Shown here one piece after another: positions 1 to 7,145 of a stretch of 36,827 nucleotides of DNA; positions within the stretch are counted from its first letter, which is position 1; each line of letters begins with the position of its first letter. The position numbers and the translations under genes were made by a program. The DNA comes from Planctomycetia bacterium. GTDB taxonomy: Bacteria > Planctomycetota > Planctomycetia > Gemmatales > Gemmataceae. Where the stretch lies: the NCBI GenBank assembly GCA_016795185.1, contig JAEUIF010000726.1, positions 1-36,827 of the forward strand. Direction: 5' to 3'. The notes beneath the pieces were generated by a model. That model saw only the letters and a program-made list of their open reading frames with translations. It made no database searches and was not told the DNA's origin.

Positions 1-830
1 TTGCCGAAGACCACAACCTGACGCACGGCATGGATGGGCACGCGGTTCAGTTCCTGGCCGTCCTTGCGGATGACCAGGTGCTCGGAACGCTTGCCGACGT
101 AGGCGCCGGGTTCCTGGAGGTAGAGCACCGCGCCGTCGTCGGACTGCGGGATGACGCGCGTCAGGCCGGCGGGAGTATCGGTGCTGGCCTGCTGCGGGCG
201 CTGCACCTGGTAGAGCGTTTCTTCGGGCAGGCAGACGGGGGCCAGCGAGCAGCCGTGACAGCGGTGGCGCAGTTCGGCCGGCAGCGGGGCCGGCGGAGTG
301 TCGCGGGCGGAGAGTTCGCGGATCTGCGCGATGGCGGCGCGGGTGGTTTCGCGCAGGCGGTCGTCGAACACGACTTCAACGCGCTCGCGCGAGCCGGCGC
401 AGAACTGCACGCCGCGGCGCACCGGCTGGCCGCGTTCCTCTTCGAGCAGCAGGCCCTGGGCGCAGAGCTGCACGGCGTCGTTGTCCCAGACGGTGGGGCG
501 GCCGGCCTCGTCGCGCGGCGCGGAACCGTGCTTGGTTTCGACGGGGTAGACCTCGCCGTTCTTCTCCTCGACCAGATCGAGCACGGCGGTCAGACCGAGG
601 CGCGTGGAACTCAGCGGCACGGAGCGGGTGCCGCTCGCACCGCCTTCCTTGCGCGGGCGCTGGGCCAGGCCGGGATCATCGACGCGGCGATGGTCGAAGA
701 GGCCGGCCTCGACGTGCTCGTTGATCGGCATGACTGCATCGACGTATTGCAGGTAGTAGAGACGTGGGCAGTAGGTGACCTGATTCAAGGCACGGACGGG
801 GATCAGGTCGAGCGGGGCGGGGTTCGACAT
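1..830 (-). CDS. cas4-cas1: Cas4-Cas1 fusion protein, CRISPR adaptation (3' end outside window)
   Basis: This reading frame is open from the ATG at 830 to the window edge (276 codons visible). Residues 1-205 are a Cas4 RecB-family nuclease. The first iron-sulphur cysteine is C21 in YCPRLYYLQYV. The nuclease residues are D85 in LGLTAVLDLVEE and the ExK pair E98/K100 in PVETKHG. The C-terminal cysteines are C191, C194 and C200 in CHGCSLAPVCLPEE. From about residue 234 the Cas1 N-terminal beta domain begins (VLYLQEPGAYVGKRSEHL), so this is a natural fusion, a form known from type I-G (formerly I-U) and V-B CRISPR systems. Cas4 trims and selects PAM-bearing prespacers and Cas1 integrates them. 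AGGAG lies about 9 bases before the ATG. It follows herA by 67 bp on the same strand. The Cas1 catalytic domain, cas2, the effector genes and any array would lie to the left. The family call is firm; the CRISPR subtype is not determined. Confidence 0.93.
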   Translation of the reverse strand, partial: MSNPAPLDLIPVRALNQVTYCPRLYYLQYVDAVMPINEHVEAGLFDHRRVDDPGLAQRPRKEGGASGTRSVPLSSTRLGLTAVLDLVEEKNGEVYPVETKHGSAPRDEAGRPTVWDNDAVQLCAQGLLLEEERGQPVRRGVQFCAGSRERVEVVFDDRLRETTRAAIAQIRELSARDTPPAPLPAELRHRCHGCSLAPVCLPEETLYQVQRPQQASTDTPAGLTRVIPQSDDGAVLYLQEPGAYVGKRSEHLVIRKDGQELNRVPIHAVRQVVVFG

Positions 831-897: not shown

Positions 898-2859
898 TTA
901 TTCCGCCAGGCGCAGCTTGCCTGGTGTGGGGTCGATGGCGACCAGCAGCGGGCGGGTCATGTGCGGGAAGGAGACGATCGCCTGGCCCGGCGCCAGGCCC
1001 GCTACCCGGTTCCAGAGGGCGGGATCGATGCCGCTGACCGTGCGCTTCAGGCCGTCGAGCACGTGCGGGTCGGTCAGCTTGTGCAGGATGAAGCTGTTCA
1101 CCAGCCCCAGCACCTGACGCGGCAGGTGGGCCGGCAGCTGCGTCACGAACGCCAGCCCCAGGTAACGCTTCCTGCCTCGCTTGGCAATTCTCGCGACCTG
1201 CTCGAAGAGGATTTTCAGCTTGTCGATGCGCTCGGCGCTCAGGAACTCGTGCGCTTCCTCGATGACGATCAACACTCGGGGCAACGTCGCTTCCAGCTTC
1301 TGGTCCTTGGTTTTCTCGTAGGCTTGATAGGCGTGGTCCTGGGCGTCCTGCACGCCGCGCAGGATGTCGGCGATGACCAGATTGTTCAGCTCGGAGGCGC
1401 CGGAATCCGACAGGTCGAGGATCGAGACCTGCCCCGGCTTCAGCAGGTCGGTGTAGCTCATCGGCTTGACGCCGTCCTGCTCGTTGTAGAAGACCCGCAG
1501 CCGTTGCAGCCGCCAGAGCTTGCCCAGGAGCGCTTTCCAGGAGATGACGTTGCCGGGCATATCGGTGGCGTTCAGGCGAATCGTCAGGGCGCGTTTGCCT
1601 TCGGGCGTCGTCAGGATCGAGTTGAACGGTTTGAACTCTTCAGTAGGCGGCTCCTCGGTCTTGTTCTTCTTGCCGTCGCGGCCAGCGCGGTCGGCTTTCG
1701 CCAGGCAGGCGCTGGCGATGTCGATCAGGAACGACAGCGTCAACCGGGGATAGCCGCGCTCGAATTCGTCCAGCTCCAGGACGATGCGCTCCTGCTCGGC
1801 GCGCTGCTGCGCCGTGACGTTCTTCTGCGGAAAAATGTCCAGGTCGCGCATCACGTCTTTGGCGATGTCGTAGGCCTTGAGGAAGCGCACTTGCTGCGCC
1901 TCGGAATCCGACAGGCCGAGAATTTCCATCGCGGCGTAAGGCGACAGCCGGGCGAATTGCAGCGAAAACGCCTGCACGTGCGGGTGCTGCGGGTTGATCG
2001 TTTCCCGGCCCGCCAGGTGATAGAGTCGGGTGCGGTCGGGCGGCAGGGCGGTCGGTTCCAGGCCGCGTTCCTTCAGGGCCAGCACCATGTCGTCGTGGTC
2101 GGTCGGTTCGTGCAGGTGGGTGTACTCGCCTTCCACGTCGAGGACGATGACGGCCATGCCGGCGGCCTGGGCCTGCTGGATCAGCCGGGCCACGGTGGTC
2201 GATTTACCGCTGCCGGTGGTGCCGAGGATGGCCAGGTGCCGGGGCAGCACCGACTTTTTCTGCGAGGGCACGTTCACCACCAGGTTTTCGTGGCCAACGA
2301 CCAGGCCCAGGCGGATGTCGCCCTCGGTGCGCAGCACGACGGCGGCTTCGGCGTCGCTCAGCGGCACGATCGGGCTGTTGGGCAACGGCCGCAGCCGGGG
2401 CGGCACCAGCGTGCCGTCCTTCAGTTCCTCGCCGAGAATGGCCAGCTGCGCCCGGCCGTGAAACGGCGGCAGGTACTCGCCGCCGCGCGTGGCCACGGTA
2501 ACGAGCATGTGCGAATCGCCGCGCAGGCTGTCGGGCTCGGCGAACGGGCCGGCGGCGACGATGCCCAGGTAGCGCCGGCCGTCCCGGCTGTGGATGCGCA
2601 CCAGCATCTGCGACGGTGCAAGGTTGATCTTGTCCTGGGCCAGCAGCACGGTGACGCTGTTGTCCTCGCTGCCGGGCAGGTCGAACATGGTGCTGCCGAT
2701 GGCGCCGGGGACGCCGGGAGGCGTGGGCGAAGCGCCTCCCGACGCCTGCATGTCGGCGTCCAGCTGTTGCCGCAGTTGCTCCGGGGTGGTGCGGGCCGGC
2801 GCGGCGGTTGCCTGCCGTCGTTCGGCTTCGGGCGCTGCGCCGTCAATGAAGTAACTCAT
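898..2859 (-). CDS. herA: HerA-family (DUF87) DNA translocase ATPase
   Basis: A 653-residue protein if started at the ATG at 2859, which has AGGAGG about 8 bases upstream; a start 11 codons earlier at 2892 lacks such a site. The N-terminal part (about 65-190) fits the HAS-barrel region of HerA. Walker A is GTTGSGKST around residues 213-221 and Walker B is VLIVIEEAHEF around 529-539. The C-terminal third has the usual HerA string with RKRYLGLAFVTQLP, LVNSFILHKLTDP and PGQAIVSFPH. HerA forms hexameric rings that pump duplex DNA and partner the NurA nuclease in DNA-end resection; related HerA ATPases pair with other effectors in phage defence. Here the gene directly follows a NurA-like gene and precedes cas4-cas1, which supports a nucleic-acid defence or adaptation role. 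An insert rich in charged residues (about 390-412) is present. The family is certain; the role is inferred. Confidence 0.9.
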   Translation of the reverse strand: MSYFIDGAAPEAERRQATAAPARTTPEQLRQQLDADMQASGGASPTPPGVPGAIGSTMFDLPGSEDNSVTVLLAQDKINLAPSQMLVRIHSRDGRRYLGIVAAGPFAEPDSLRGDSHMLVTVATRGGEYLPPFHGRAQLAILGEELKDGTLVPPRLRPLPNSPIVPLSDAEAAVVLRTEGDIRLGLVVGHENLVVNVPSQKKSVLPRHLAILGTTGSGKSTTVARLIQQAQAAGMAVIVLDVEGEYTHLHEPTDHDDMVLALKERGLEPTALPPDRTRLYHLAGRETINPQHPHVQAFSLQFARLSPYAAMEILGLSDSEAQQVRFLKAYDIAKDVMRDLDIFPQKNVTAQQRAEQERIVLELDEFERGYPRLTLSFLIDIASACLAKADRAGRDGKKNKTEEPPTEEFKPFNSILTTPEGKRALTIRLNATDMPGNVISWKALLGKLWRLQRLRVFYNEQDGVKPMSYTDLLKPGQVSILDLSDSGASELNNLVIADILRGVQDAQDHAYQAYEKTKDQKLEATLPRVLIVIEEAHEFLSAERIDKLKILFEQVARIAKRGRKRYLGLAFVTQLPAHLPRQVLGLVNSFILHKLTDPHVLDGLKRTVSGIDPALWNRVAGLAPGQAIVSFPHMTRPLLVAIDPTPGKLRLAE

Positions 2860-2894
2860 GCGGGGCCTCCTGGGGGATTCGCCGACGATCAATT

Positions 2895-2964: not shown

Positions 2965-4233
2965 TCACCGGGAGCGGGTGGAGCGTTCGCTGAAGTAACG
3001 CCAGGGGACGCCGGCCGCCGCGTAGGCTGATTCGCTCAGACCGTGCAGCGTGCCACGGAACATCGACCGGCAGACGTGGTCGGCCAGGTCGAGCAGCAGC
3101 GGGAAACCGCGATGCTCCTGGAGCATGCCGTCGGCCAGCACCAGCCGGCCGGCGACCAGGGCGTGGTCGGCGTGGGCGTAGAAGAGCTGCGCCGTCGCGT
3201 AGGCGCTGGCGCGGTAGAGGCCAACCACCACTTGCGAGGCGACCTCGTCGATGAAGCGCGGAATCCAGTCGGCGGGCGTCAGCGCTGCACCGTCCCAGTC
3301 GAGCGTGGTGCGGACGCCGACCTTGAAGCGCTCCTGCGAGAACCAGCGGTGCAGCGAGTCGGCCAGCGTTTCGACGATGGCGAACTCCAGGGGCCGCAGC
3401 GCCTGGCCGATGGTCAAGAGCACGCGGTCGCGCGGCTCGCTGGCCACGTAGACGAACTTGCGGTGGCCCTGGATCAGCTCGCGCAGCAGTTGCGTGCCGG
3501 CGACCATCAGTTCCAGCAGGCCCGCGCCGGTGAGCAGTTCGTAGGTGATCGGGTTGCCGTGGCCCAGCCGCCAGATCGCCTGTGAGCGCCGCAGCAGCAC
3601 CGCCCGCTCGGCGTAGTCGAGCAGCGTCTTGCGGACCAGTTCGCCGAGCGGGTCTTCGGGAGAGTGGCGCTGCTGGCCCTCGCGGCGCGCGCGGCGTTCG
3701 AGCAGTTCCAGGACTTCGGCCACTGGGTCGGCGCAGTGCTGCCGCAGGTCGCGGCGGAACAGCCGCTGGCTCCAGGTGCCCTGGTCGCCGCGATACGACA
3801 CCAGGCTGACGCCGACCTGATAGACCGTCAACGGCAGCGTATCGTGGACTTCCATCGTGCCGTCGCAGCACTCGACGCCGCCGGTGAACAGCAAGCCGCG
3901 CTGCAAGCGCTCCAGTTCCGCGGGCGTGGCCTGATGCACGCCGGCATCCTTCGGCGCTACCGGACGCTCTTGCAAGCGCGGGAAGACCACGTCGCGCAGT
4001 TGCTTCTGGTAATCGGTCTCGCGGGCGACGGCATCGCGGATTTCACGCTCGATGCGGGCGAACTCCCGGCCCAGGTCGGGGCCGACGCCCCATTGGGTCA
4101 CGTCGAGCACCTGGCGCAGCTCCTCGCCGAAGCTGGCGTGGAATTGCTCGGCGGTGGCGTCGCCAAGCGTCAGCTGCCGCAGCGGTCGAGAGTCGGCCGG
4201 CAAGGTCGCGCCGTTGGCGGGTGCGGTGGACAT
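2965..4233 (-). CDS. NurA-like nuclease, HerA partner
   Basis: A 422-residue soluble protein. Its start at 4233 is supported by GGGAGGAACAAAA before the ATG. It does not match a textbook NurA closely, but three regions fit the NurA fold. The first is an acidic strand with D124 in ECCDGTMEVH followed by a hydrophobic strand (YQVGVSLVSY). The second is a central helix-strand block with E209 and a later hydrophobic strand (KFVYVASEP, 259-267). The third is a C-terminal RGFPLLLDLADHVC (375-388), resembling the GYPxxLxxA region of NurA. NurA is a Mn-dependent 5'-3' exonuclease and endonuclease that works with HerA. Its position immediately upstream of herA on the same strand (105 bp apart) is the strongest argument. 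Alternatively it may be another HerA-associated effector of unknown activity. Moderate confidence. Confidence 0.6.
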   Translation of the reverse strand: MSTAPANGATLPADSRPLRQLTLGDATAEQFHASFGEELRQVLDVTQWGVGPDLGREFARIEREIRDAVARETDYQKQLRDVVFPRLQERPVAPKDAGVHQATPAELERLQRGLLFTGGVECCDGTMEVHDTLPLTVYQVGVSLVSYRGDQGTWSQRLFRRDLRQHCADPVAEVLELLERRARREGQQRHSPEDPLGELVRKTLLDYAERAVLLRRSQAIWRLGHGNPITYELLTGAGLLELMVAGTQLLRELIQGHRKFVYVASEPRDRVLLTIGQALRPLEFAIVETLADSLHRWFSQERFKVGVRTTLDWDGAALTPADWIPRFIDEVASQVVVGLYRASAYATAQLFYAHADHALVAGRLVLADGMLQEHRGFPLLLDLADHVCRSMFRGTLHGLSESAYAAAGVPWRYFSERSTRSR

Positions 4234-4287: not shown

Positions 4288-4992
4288 TCAGGAAAGCAGG
4301 CCGAGTCGTCCGAGCAGCGCGGGCGGTGCGGCTGGCAGCAGCCATGCGGCGTAAGTGCCGGCCGCCGATGCGGGCAAGCCGAACTCGCGTTGTAGCACGG
4401 CAATCAGTTCCGCCGGCCCCAGTCCCTGGCCGTAGCGCGCCTCCAGGATGTCGGCTGGCGCCAGCAGTTCGTAGGCCAGCAGGTCGGCGGCCTCCTCGGC
4501 GTCGGCGGCCTGATCGCGTTCCAGCAAGTGGAAGAAGTAGCCGAGCGGCACGCGGGCCAGCAGGGCATCGACCCGTTCCGTCGCGGTGGGCGGCCGCTGC
4601 CCGTCAAGGACTTCGAGGGCTTGCGGTCCCAGCTGGCGGATGGCCGCGCGGCGCGGTTGCCAGTAGTCGCGCAGGAAGTGCGCCAGCTCGTGTGCCAGCG
4701 TGAAACGCTGTTCGTCCTCGGGGTCCGCGCCGTCGATGAAGACGAAGCCCTGGCCGCGCTGGGCCATCAGGCAGCCGCGCAACGCCCGGTCGGCGCTGCG
4801 GCACGGGCAGGGTACGCCGTTGCGTGCCAGCCAGTCGCGCACGACCGCCAGGCCCAGGTGCGGCAGGTCGATGATCGACAACGGCAGTGCTCGGCATGCC
4901 GGCCCGCGCAACTGGCGCGGGAATGGCTCTCGCCGCCCGGCCGCCGTCCAGAAGGCCGCGGCCAGCTCGTGGACCCAGCCGGCGACCATCAT
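4288..4992 (-). CDS. ImmA/IrrE-family zinc metallopeptidase
   Basis: A 234-residue protein started at the ATG at 4992, which overlaps the TGA of the upstream HTH gene (ATGA) and follows GGAGAAGAAG. The zinc site is HELAHFLRD with H101, E102 and H105. The third ligand is expected in EEAADLLAYELLAPADIL (E166/E167), the usual ImmA/IrrE downstream helix. Family members cleave HTH repressors: ImmA cleaves ImmR in ICEBs1, and IrrE (PprI) cleaves DdrO after radiation damage in Deinococcus. The gene is coupled to an HTH-like protein and a sigma-like protein upstream and to nurA-herA-cas4-cas1 downstream. A role in induction of this operon is therefore likely but inferred. An in-frame extension to 5244 would overlap most of the upstream gene and is disfavoured. 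Family call is strong. Confidence 0.88.
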   Translation of the reverse strand: MMVAGWVHELAAAFWTAAGRREPFPRQLRGPACRALPLSIIDLPHLGLAVVRDWLARNGVPCPCRSADRALRGCLMAQRGQGFVFIDGADPEDEQRFTLAHELAHFLRDYWQPRRAAIRQLGPQALEVLDGQRPPTATERVDALLARVPLGYFFHLLERDQAADAEEAADLLAYELLAPADILEARYGQGLGPAELIAVLQREFGLPASAAGTYAAWLLPAAPPALLGRLGLLS

Positions 4993-5369
4993 GGCTTCTT
5001 CTCCACGGGAGGCGGCGGTTCGTCGGGCTGTTCGCGCGCTGCGAGTAGATAGCCGGCGTCGCTCGCTGGGGTTTCGGAGGCACGCAGCGACAGCAGGTTC
5101 TGTCCCCGGCGCACTACCTGCGCCAGCACCTCGGCCTCGACGGCAAAGCGTTCGGCGATGCGGTCCACATCCTGGCCGAAGCCGGGCGGCTCCGCGCGCG
5201 GCATCCGGCACAAGCGCAGCAACGGCAGGTTTTCCATCGGGCACCTCAGGCGCGCGGCCAGCGCGGCATCGTCCAGCCCCTCGCTGCGGGCGTACAGCGC
5301 CAGCGCTGGGGCCAGGAACCAGGCATCGTTCGCCACGCGCCGCGCCAGGTAGTTGAGGGAATCACTCAT
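4989..5369 (-). CDS. Small HTH-like regulatory protein
   Basis: A 126-residue protein. It overlaps the sigma-like gene by 8 bp upstream and the peptidase gene by 4 bp downstream, so the three are probably translationally coupled; its own ribosome site is weak. The segment at about 24-75 (LALYARSEGLDDAALAARLR, then LPLLRLCRMP and FGQDVDRIAERFAVEAEVL) looks like a compact helical DNA-binding domain, with a turn between LDDAALAARLR and the next helix and a second helical pair. The tail (about 95-126) is proline-rich and probably disordered. HTH proteins encoded beside ImmA/IrrE peptidases are usually the cleaved repressors, so this is a candidate substrate. It could instead be an accessory to the sigma-like protein. 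I recognise the arrangement, not a named family. Confidence 0.6.
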   Translation of the reverse strand: MSDSLNYLARRVANDAWFLAPALALYARSEGLDDAALAARLRCPMENLPLLRLCRMPRAEPPGFGQDVDRIAERFAVEAEVLAQVVRRGQNLLSLRASETPASDAGYLLAAREQPDEPPPPVEKKP

Positions 5370-5988
5370 TGGCTTGCCGTGCCCGTTTCCAGCGGTGCTT
5401 CAGTTTGTCCTTGAGGCGGTTGACCGCGTCCACCTGCTCCTCGGCCGGCAGCTGGGTCAGGCCGCAGGTTTCGGCCCAGACCGCCGAACTCCGCTCGCCA
5501 TGCAGCAGCAGGCCGACGCCACGCACCTCATCATCCGTCAGTCCATCGAGCACGTCGACCGGCACCGCTTGCCATAGCTCTGCTTCCGCCTCGGCCTGCT
5601 GCATGGGCAGCGAGGGATCGTCGTCCCGCCCCAGGTACTTCCCGACATCTTCCGAATGTTCGACGGAATTCCAGGGCACGCGCCCCCGCTGATGCCGGAA
5701 TTCGCTCCGCCGGAGATTGCGCAGGTCGCACAGCGCCGCCAGGCGCAGGTACGCTTCAAGGGTTTGTTTTTCGGGCCGATAAGCGGCCGGCCGCTTGATG
5801 AAATCCAATAACGCTTGGCCGGCCGCTTCCAGGTAAAGGTGGGGATCGACGCCGCGCAGGCAGGTGGTCAGCCAGGCGGCCAGGGGATCGAGAAAGGCTT
5901 CCGCGAGGTCGGACGAAGCAGTGGGATCGCCGGCCAGGAGGCGTTGCAGGAGCACCAGTTCATCGTCGTGGTCGGGCGAAGCGGCCAT
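5362..5988 (-). CDS. Sigma-70 (ECF-like) family protein, divergent
   Basis: A 208-residue protein at the head of the minus-strand operon. ATG at 5988 is preceded by GGAAG. Residues about 10-95 resemble sigma region 2 (LQRLLAGDPTASSDLAEAF, LDFIKRPAAYRPEKQTLEAY, LRLAALCDLRNLRRSE). Residues about 140-205 could be a degraded region 4 (VDVLDGLTDDEVRGVGLLL, then VNRLKDKLKHRWKRARQ). The canonical region 4 HTH is not obvious, so it may act as a sigma factor with altered specificity or as a sigma-derived regulator. It overlaps the next gene by 8 bp. Being first in the operon, it may autoactivate it. Confidence is moderate for the family and low for activity. Confidence 0.65.
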   Translation of the reverse strand: MAASPDHDDELVLLQRLLAGDPTASSDLAEAFLDPLAAWLTTCLRGVDPHLYLEAAGQALLDFIKRPAAYRPEKQTLEAYLRLAALCDLRNLRRSEFRHQRGRVPWNSVEHSEDVGKYLGRDDDPSLPMQQAEAEAELWQAVPVDVLDGLTDDEVRGVGLLLHGERSSAVWAETCGLTQLPAEEQVDAVNRLKDKLKHRWKRARQANE

Positions 5989-6018
5989 CGGACTTCCGTG
6001 AACCGGAATGAGCGGAGA

Positions 6019-6036
6019 GGGGCTCGGGCGAGCCCC
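6019..6036. promoter_or_regulatory. Leader hairpin upstream of the sigma-like gene
   Basis: GGGGCTCG and CGAGCCCC form a perfect 8-bp inverted repeat around a 2-base centre. It lies about 30 bases upstream of the ATG at 5988. Transcribed on the minus strand, it would make a tight hairpin in the 5' leader of the defence-like operon, just before the ribosome site. It may be an operator or an attenuating or stabilising hairpin. Confidence 0.4.
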
Positions 6037-6045
6037 AATGCAGGC

Positions 6046-6073
6046 AGTCTAGCGTATCCAGTAGCTGCCGCAA
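6046..6073 (-). promoter_or_regulatory. Possible sigma-70-type promoter for the sigma-HTH-IrrE-NurA-HerA-Cas operon
   Basis: On the minus strand a TTGCGG element (6073-6068) is followed, after 16 bases, by TAGACT (6051-6046). The match is partial. The position, about 55 bases before the first start codon, fits. It is reported only as the best candidate in the gap. Confidence 0.22.
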
Positions 6074-6112
6074 GCAAATCCCGTCGTCAAAGTCGCACAG
6101 GATTGGTCGGCG

Positions 6113-6126
6113 AATTCCCCGGAATT
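6113..6126. repeat. Near-palindrome AATTCCCCGGAATT
   Basis: AATTCC and GGAATT flank a CC centre and are followed by AACCGC. A related perfect palindrome is found at 25853-25868, followed by GCGGC. The two sites roughly bracket the stress/ion-transport region. They may be ends of a mobile element or scars of one; no transposase is present in the window. Confidence 0.35.
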
Positions 6127-6179
6127 AACCGCGGGACGACAAGTGTGGCCCTGACTACAACCACGCCGAAGCGCGGTGC

Positions 6180-6197
6180 GTCCGCGTCGACGCGGAC
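6180..6197. repeat. Perfect 18-bp palindrome
   Basis: GTCCGCGTC is followed directly by its reverse complement GACGCGGAC. It lies between the 3' end of the M50-like gene (6263) and the sigma-like operon. There is no T-run on the minus-strand side, so a classical intrinsic terminator is unlikely. It could be a dimeric regulator's operator for the downstream operon. Confidence 0.45.
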
Positions 6198-6262
6198 TAT
6201 TTAGCCTTTGGTCGAACCCACCTGTTAGCAGGCCATCACAACCGGCCAGAAATGGGCGCGCG

Positions 6263-6895
6263 CTAAGCGGCCCTGTTGAGGAAGGAATCAGGGAAGATTT
6301 CCTCCAAGGCCCGGGCGCCGTCGTCCGGCAGGTCGGTGCCCTTGGAGACCGTCTCGACCACGGCGTTCTGCTGACAGGGCAGGAAGCAGCAGGCGTATGC
6401 GAGCAGTAGCCATTTCTCGATGATGCGGCGCACGCCCTTCAGGTCGGGATGCTTGGCGATCTCGGCGTCCGTGGGTGAACGCACCTGGAGCGGCAAGAAG
6501 CCGATGGACTTGCCGCGCAGCAGGTCGGCTTTGACCAGCTCGTAGGCGTAGTCCGGCAGCCAGTCGTCTTGCGGCCAGCTTTCGGGCCGGGGCTCGCCGC
6601 CCAGTTCGGCCACGCCGCCGAAGACAAACAGCCGGATGCCGCGCACGGGGATGCCGAAGCGCCGCGCCACGAAGGCGTGGCCCAGTTCGTGCAGGAGGAT
6701 AGAGACGAACAAGCCCAGGGCGGCCAGCAGGCCCAGTCCCCAGTACACCCGACGGTCGGCAGTATATTCGGGCAAGGTCTGGGGAAAGAAACCATTGGCC
6801 AGGGGCCAGGAGATCAGGAACACGGCCAGAAACCAGCTCCAGTGGTGCCGGAAGGGAACCCCCAGCAGCCCGCCCAGGTTGATGTCGCCGGTCAT
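6263..6895 (-). CDS. Chimera: truncated M50 metalloprotease fused to phage prohead-protease-like tail
   Basis: A 210-residue ORF from the ATG at 6895 (GAGGTG just upstream). Residues 1-101 are the front of a membrane-embedded M50 site-2-type protease: HHWSWFLAVFLISWPLANG, a second membrane segment, the zinc motif HELGH (H69, E70, H73) and GGVAELGGEP. The second M50 metal-binding motif and the rest of the membrane core are missing. From about residue 115 the sequence changes to the C-terminal half of an HK97-type prohead protease: YAYELVKADLLRGKSIGFLP, then VRRIIEKWLLLAYACCFLP, then NAVVETVSKG. No stop or frameshift interrupts the join. Most likely this is a recombination product that inactivated the M50 peptidase. 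A functional chimera is possible but not supported. A sigma-54-like promoter precedes it. Confidence 0.6.
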   Translation of the reverse strand: MTGDINLGGLLGVPFRHHWSWFLAVFLISWPLANGFFPQTLPEYTADRRVYWGLGLLAALGLFVSILLHELGHAFVARRFGIPVRGIRLFVFGGVAELGGEPRPESWPQDDWLPDYAYELVKADLLRGKSIGFLPLQVRSPTDAEIAKHPDLKGVRRIIEKWLLLAYACCFLPCQQNAVVETVSKGTDLPDDGARALEEIFPDSFLNRAA

Positions 6896-6973
6896 GGTCG
6901 CACCTCGAAAGCCTGCCGACAGCCCTGGGGCCGGGCAACCCCGTAGTCCCAGTACGGACTCCGGCAGATGTTC

Positions 6974-6989
6974 AGCAAATTCCGAGCCG
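6974..6989 (-). promoter_or_regulatory. Candidate sigma-54 (-24/-12) promoter for the M50 chimera gene
   Basis: Read on the minus strand the site is CGGCTCGGAATTTGCT. It matches TGGCACG-N4-TTGCW with the invariant GG and GC exactly 10 bases apart, a perfect TTGCT -12 box and two mismatches in the -24 box. Transcription would start near 6963, about 70 bases before the start codon. Together with the two other sites in this region it suggests a shared NtrC-dependent regulon. Confidence 0.45.
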
Positions 6990-7145
6990 CCGGGCCGAGC
7001 GCGAGAACAGGGCGCGGCGATTTGCCCGACCGTGCACGGACGTTCGTGCGCCGGGAACTTCGGCATTCCGGGCGGTCAGTGTCGGGTGCGAAAGGCTTCT
7101 CCCCGCCGACGAGGGCGAGGGGCGTCCGGGACGGACTCTTACCGG

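Follow-up and report, generated by a model that had tools for sequence, protein, structure and literature searches.

A sigma/HTH-like/M78 gene trio at the head of a HerA operon in planctomycetes: a candidate repressor-cleavage switch

Results

Three overlapping genes precede a row of DNA-processing genes

The window, by which we mean the whole stretch of 36,827 nucleotides that was analysed, forms a single contig in a draft genome of 9.5 Mb. On its minus strand, genes for an ECF-type sigma factor (5362..5988, 208 aa, P0003), a small helical, probably Xre/HTH-like protein (4989..5369, 126 aa, P0002) and an ImmA/IrrE-type M78 metallopeptidase (4288..4992, 234 aa, P0001) are followed by genes for a NurA-like protein (2965..4233, 422 aa), a HerA-family helicase/translocase (898..2892) and a type I-G-like Cas4-Cas1 fusion (1..830), which is truncated by the contig end. 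The sigma and HTH-like genes overlap by 8 bp, and the HTH-like and M78 genes by 4 bp (ATGA); both overlaps, first pointed out in the sequence-only reading of this DNA, are exact. Because the gap sizes recur across 29 complete cassettes from related genomes, the overlaps are real and chance is excluded: the gap between the HTH-like and M78 genes is -4 in 27 cassettes, and that between the sigma and HTH-like genes is -4, -8 or -17 in 26. Overlaps kept in this way are of the translational-coupling type. Upstream of the sigma gene, an intergenic region (5989..6262, minus strand) is the expected site of a promoter or operator. Directly upstream of the cassette and on the same strand lies an M50 (site-2-protease-like) gene (6263-7066), whose Pfam match spans part of the domain and which may be degraded.

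The trio comprises an M78 peptidase, an ECF sigma factor and a probable Xre-like protein

The third gene of the trio had been read as ImmA/IrrE-like, and it encodes a clear M78 peptidase. Its product matches PF06114 with 39.4 bits against a curated cut-off of 22 and carries the HExxH metal site as HELAH (residues 101-105; codons 4678..4692, minus strand). H101, E102 and H105 are invariant in 15 M78 sequences, as is the distal E166, a putative metal ligand judging by its position. The nearest solved relatives by profile search of the PDB are CapP (7t5t, 3.8e-5), IrrE (0.0054) and an IrrE ortholog (0.01). The protein also matches the PADLOC capP profile at 3.4e-8.

The first gene, earlier called sigma-like, proved to have the fold of an ECF sigma factor. 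The window's own protein has no Pfam match; among 14 aligned family members, seven match Sigma70_r2 (best 1.2e-5), and one family member matches Sigma70_r4 weakly, at 0.012. The AlphaFold model (pLDDT 85) includes C-terminal helices, and a fold search of the PDB with it returned essentially sigma factors only, sigmaE (6jbq) and full-length ECF factors among them. Region 2 of sigmaE (4lup) superposes on the model with a TM-score of 0.85 at 1.7 A. No recognisable anti-sigma gene adjoins the sigma gene.

The HTH label of the second gene holds as probable. The protein of the window matches no Pfam family, HTH_3 included, and one paralog matches HTH_3 at 0.0036. The model of the window's protein is confident and helical (pLDDT 89), and its best fold matches in the PDB are the Xre-type regulators ClgR, CapH and SinR, all of them weak (best E 0.26); CapH, the third, is a weak match at E 0.63 with a TM-score below 0.5. 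The weak sequence matches of the family include HipB antitoxins. Taken together, these matches make an Xre-like identity probable for the small helical protein.

HerA is clear and its partner is NurA-like by position

Downstream of the trio, the identity of HerA is clear (DUF87 4.7e-21, HerA_C 5.3e-12). The 422-aa protein belongs to a conserved family encoded beside HerA, in which the Pfam NurA domain (PF09376) was matched neither by 14 aligned members nor anywhere in the window's own genome; for this reason we call it NurA-like by position only. Homology to NurA was considered and rejected, as hhalign gave no useful match to Pfam-type NurA or to the NurA candidate of a locus from another genus (L057). 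The Cas4-Cas1 protein matches NF049935 at 8.5e-77 over the first half, below the full-length cut-off since the gene is contig-truncated. What had been called a defence operon comprises HerA, this truncated, type I-G-like Cas4-Cas1 fusion and a 422-aa gene named by its position.

At the locus from another genus mentioned above (L057, 2526-10734), an M78 gene is followed in turn by a gene that matches NurA weakly (0.0018), one of 618 aa, and two that resemble SbcD and SbcC; here M78 sits among double-strand-break repair genes, with no CRISPR in the cluster. The locus gives an independent hint of an association between M78 peptidases and the processing of DNA ends in these bacteria.

The trio is a conserved unit

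We collected relatives by a search with the M78 protein, fetched their flanks and then ran an HTH profile over 398 genomes of the class. This yielded 30 complete five-gene cassettes, running from the sigma gene to HerA, with identical order and strand, nearly all in the window's own planctomycete family and the rest in one other family. The HTH family occurs in 31 genomes of the window's family and one genome of another family among the 398, and sampling the phylum gave no further match. One cassette copy (L008) comes from a possibly misbinned draft that carries the label Chloroflexi. Three genomes hold two copies of the cassette or of part of it (G234, L094 and L118; G205, L092 and L117; G048, L041 and L045).

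At loci where the contig continues past the M78 gene, the NurA-like gene comes next in 33 and fails to do so in one (L052). Co-occurrence of the trio elsewhere, a check proposed with the sequence-only reading, therefore shows that the trio does not commonly stand without nucleic-acid genes; it is a conserved unit heading a DNA-processing operon. The exceptions are few: L052 has the trio without the NurA-like gene or HerA, L054 has the trio without HerA, and L106 has the sigma-HTH pair without M78. At these three loci, judged by eye, the starts of the neighbouring genes resemble an H4MPT-linked C1-transfer/hydantoinase-like protein and an amino-acid kinase.

The HTH-like protein is tied to the peptidase by a tail motif and by co-evolution

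The C-terminal tail of the HTH-like protein is variable apart from one short motif, with the consensus [LMI]AARD and the form LLAARE in the window (codons 5031..5048, minus strand). Ala110 and Ala111 are present in 29 of 29 sequences and Arg112 in 28. Synonymous codons vary freely at the motif, and selection therefore acts on the protein. A form of it is also kept in M78-adjacent HTH proteins outside the 29 (L009, L045, L052, L053, L054 and L098), so that every M78-linked HTH protein examined carries it; 11 weaker paralog loci without M78 have no match. A degenerate form, PLAARH, occurs in L110. This contrast is suggestive, because the M78-less paralogs are distant and the absence of the motif from their tails may have other causes. 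With that reservation, the distribution of the motif suggests a tie between the HTH-like protein and the peptidase, for which it would be a candidate cleavage or docking site.

A second line of evidence comes from the partial correlation of pairwise distances (mirror-tree). The HTH-like protein and M78 give a partial r of 0.57 (jackknife 0.47-0.60), and the NurA-like protein and HerA give 0.78. Adjacency alone cannot explain the value of 0.57, because the equally adjacent sigma-HTH and M78-NurA pairs give 0.14 and 0.13, respectively. Within genus g17 the contrast is weaker (HTH-M78 0.39, sigma-HTH 0.39, HTH-NurA 0.41). The sigma factor is only weakly tied to any of its partners, and the positive feedback that had been ascribed to it found no support.

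We lean, by a modest measure, towards the reading that the trio acts as a local repressor-cleavage switch, comparable to CapP/CapH or IrrE/DdrO, for a HerA-NurA-type resection operon. Of the switch proposed earlier, the tail motif and the co-evolution speak for the tie between HTH-like protein and peptidase; local control is pointed to by an upstream element seen in one genus (below).

The same genes could work differently. The small protein might hold the ECF sigma factor as an anti-sigma would, and M78 would then destroy it, releasing sigma for transcription of the operon; the signal from DNA may be unchanged, and a DNA-binding repressor would be absent. The sigma factor is genuinely ECF-like and has no recognisable anti-sigma gene beside it, the HTH assignment is weak, the sigma-HTH overlap is conserved, and the pair persists without M78 in L106. 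Such a partnership, however, would be expected to show tight pairing, whereas the sigma-HTH correlation is 0.14 overall, reaching 0.39 within g17, and the helix pattern and the paralogs of the small protein resemble Xre HTH proteins. We regard regulated anti-sigma proteolysis as unlikely.

An addiction module offers a further alternative, in which an Xre-like antitoxin and an M78 'toxin' stabilise the cassette and regulate nothing. Pairs of an Xre protein and a zinc metalloproteinase have been investigated as type II toxin-antitoxin systems (PMC10538038), and HipB antitoxins appear among the family's matches, as noted. Against this, the module is locked to one cargo across genera, the peptidase has no plasmid or phage match, and neither a conserved tail motif nor an ECF sigma factor is expected in a bare toxin-antitoxin pair. 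We consider this explanation very improbable.

An upstream element points to local control in one genus

If the trio does form a repressor-cleavage switch, an operator would be expected ahead of the sigma gene. An EM motif search over the 160-nt regions upstream of the sigma starts recovered a 16-bp element, RCAACYGACATCGGCG, in about 10 loci, nearly all of genus g17, where it occupies positions between -57 and -69 relative to the sigma start, with a log-likelihood of 105 against about 52 in shuffles. Exact matches in seven genomes number five, in four genomes, and all lie upstream of cassettes. A wider regulon was set aside: one-mismatch sites occur 1-5 times per genome in these seven genomes, against 0-1 for the reversed control. 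The element could serve as an operator or belong to a promoter, and phylogenetic inertia could account for part of its conservation. The window's own upstream region (5989..6262) has no recognisable copy. In another locus (L091, 8879-8971), degenerate 20-bp tandem repeats (TTCTGGAGAGTTTTGGCTGA, about four copies) lie some 300 bp upstream of the sigma gene.

This element bears on a third alternative, namely that the genes form a constitutive housekeeping end-resection operon whose overlaps set stoichiometry, or that the trio answers metal or redox cues and not DNA damage. A consensus scan found no sigma-70 promoter across the cassette region, a result that agrees with this view and says little about regulation, and activation by zinc or redox is reported for IrrE (PMC7907104). 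Three regulatory-type proteins kept at the head of the operon and, in one genus, an upstream element specific to the cassette argue against it, and we judge it quite unlikely.

The link to CRISPR is recurrent and optional

The earlier reading had made CRISPR adaptation a target of the switch. Cas4-Cas1 adjoins 16 of the 23 cassettes in which its presence could be decided and is absent beside seven; seven further cassettes end too soon. In 15 cassettes it follows HerA on the same strand at a distance of no more than 2 kb, and in one (L043) it is divergent and upstream of the sigma gene. Conversely, the fusion occurs in 167 of the 398 genomes of the class, mostly without the cassette. Because seven cassettes lack Cas4-Cas1 and most fusions lack the cassette, the link is recurrent but optional: the cassette is independent of CRISPR, and adaptation is not its defining target, with at least seven cassettes standing apart from it. 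The more constant target of the operon is HerA with the NurA-like protein.

Where the contigs reach further, Cas2 follows Cas4-Cas1 in two loci (L050 and L048); the window ends before that region. We found no CRISPR arrays beside the cassettes in segments that extend no more than about 15 kb beyond HerA and in many cases less; arrays may lie further out. A gene for a PD-T4-6-like protein kinase follows shortly after Cas4-Cas1 and Cas2 in L050 (8020-9483), and a similar one follows Cas4-Cas1 in L049. A DUF2130 gene (L043, 6779-8050, with relatives in L046 and L051) either flanks the cassette or separates HerA from Cas4-Cas1.

Discussion

A model for the proposed switch

The model builds on published relatives, in which ssDNA activates PprI/IrrE to cleave DdrO and CapP to cleave CapH (PMC10904395; PMC13373217). 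By analogy, the small HTH-like protein would at rest repress a promoter ahead of the sigma gene. A build-up of ssDNA, from double-strand breaks or phage DNA, would render the M78 peptidase active, which would then cut the HTH-like protein at or near its C-terminal [LMI]AARD motif. Cleavage would derepress the genes from sigma through the HTH-like protein, M78 and the NurA-like protein to HerA, and possibly cas4-cas1 where these lie next to the operon in the same orientation. The role of the ECF sigma factor would be to guide transcription to the operon or to strengthen it. HerA and the NurA-like protein may in turn generate more ssDNA, so that the product of the enzymes would also be the inducing signal. 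Once damage is cleared, fresh HTH-like protein would reset the switch. We infer repression, cleavage, ssDNA activation, damage induction and co-transcription of cas4-cas1 alike, and the action of the sigma factor on the operon is likewise presumed.

A bolder version holds that the sigma/HTH/M78 switch makes resection by HerA and its partner, along with spacer capture by Cas4-Cas1, inducible by the very ssDNA that comes from resection. We offer it tentatively and think it rather doubtful. If true, it would describe a feed-forward loop that joins DNA repair to CRISPR learning in planctomycetes.

M78-HTH switches at the head of immune operons were discovered only recently. For the question of how the timing of CRISPR adaptation follows the presence of free DNA ends, the cassette provides a compact case that recurs in nature: a candidate damage switch, a machine of the end-resection type and genes for spacer capture stand in line. 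The tail motif and, in one genus, the upstream element offer defined and directly testable handles.

Relation to known systems

We found no published description of the five-gene cassette in the literature searched, which lay mostly outside subscription journals. Among its closest counterparts is CapH with CapP, where separate, adjacent HTH and M78 genes likewise stand at the head of an operon, one of putative defence type in the cassette, and whose peptidase is the nearest to ours by profile. CapH and CapP precede CBASS, Bub and further immune operons, whereas the cassette heads HerA, the NurA-like gene and sometimes Cas4-Cas1. The cassette also differs in its ECF sigma factor in front and its own C-terminal AARD motif, and its HTH-like protein is not demonstrably homologous to CapH, given the fold match noted above.

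IrrE/PprI and DdrO of Deinococcus share with the cassette the M78 family and a presumed repressor substrate with a C-terminal target region. That system, however, governs a dispersed regulon through RDRM sites, in contrast to the exact matches of RCAACYGACATCGGCG, which are confined to the cassette in the genomes searched, and the regulatory genes of the cassette are co-linear with HerA. Among mobile elements, ImmA and ImmR of ICEs and prophages similarly combine an M78 peptidase with an adjacent HTH regulator in a single transcription unit; unlike them, the cassette has no integrase or transfer genes, and its peptidase is without plasmid or phage relatives among the matches.

For the downstream genes, HerA-NurA counts among the resection machines that produce ssDNA, and an archaeal-type HerA-NurA operon occurs in Deinococcus (PMC10904395). 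In Pyrobaculum, nurA-csm6-herA adjoins CRISPR arrays, and a role in spacer acquisition has been proposed for the HerA-NurA paralogs (PMC3396285). The Pyrobaculum genes thus resemble the cassette in linking HerA-NurA to CRISPR loci; they differ in being archaeal, in including csm6 and in lacking the sigma/HTH/M78 trio, and the partner of the cassette is a type I-G-like Cas4-Cas1. Elements of these published systems stand here in one gene row, with an ECF sigma factor in front.
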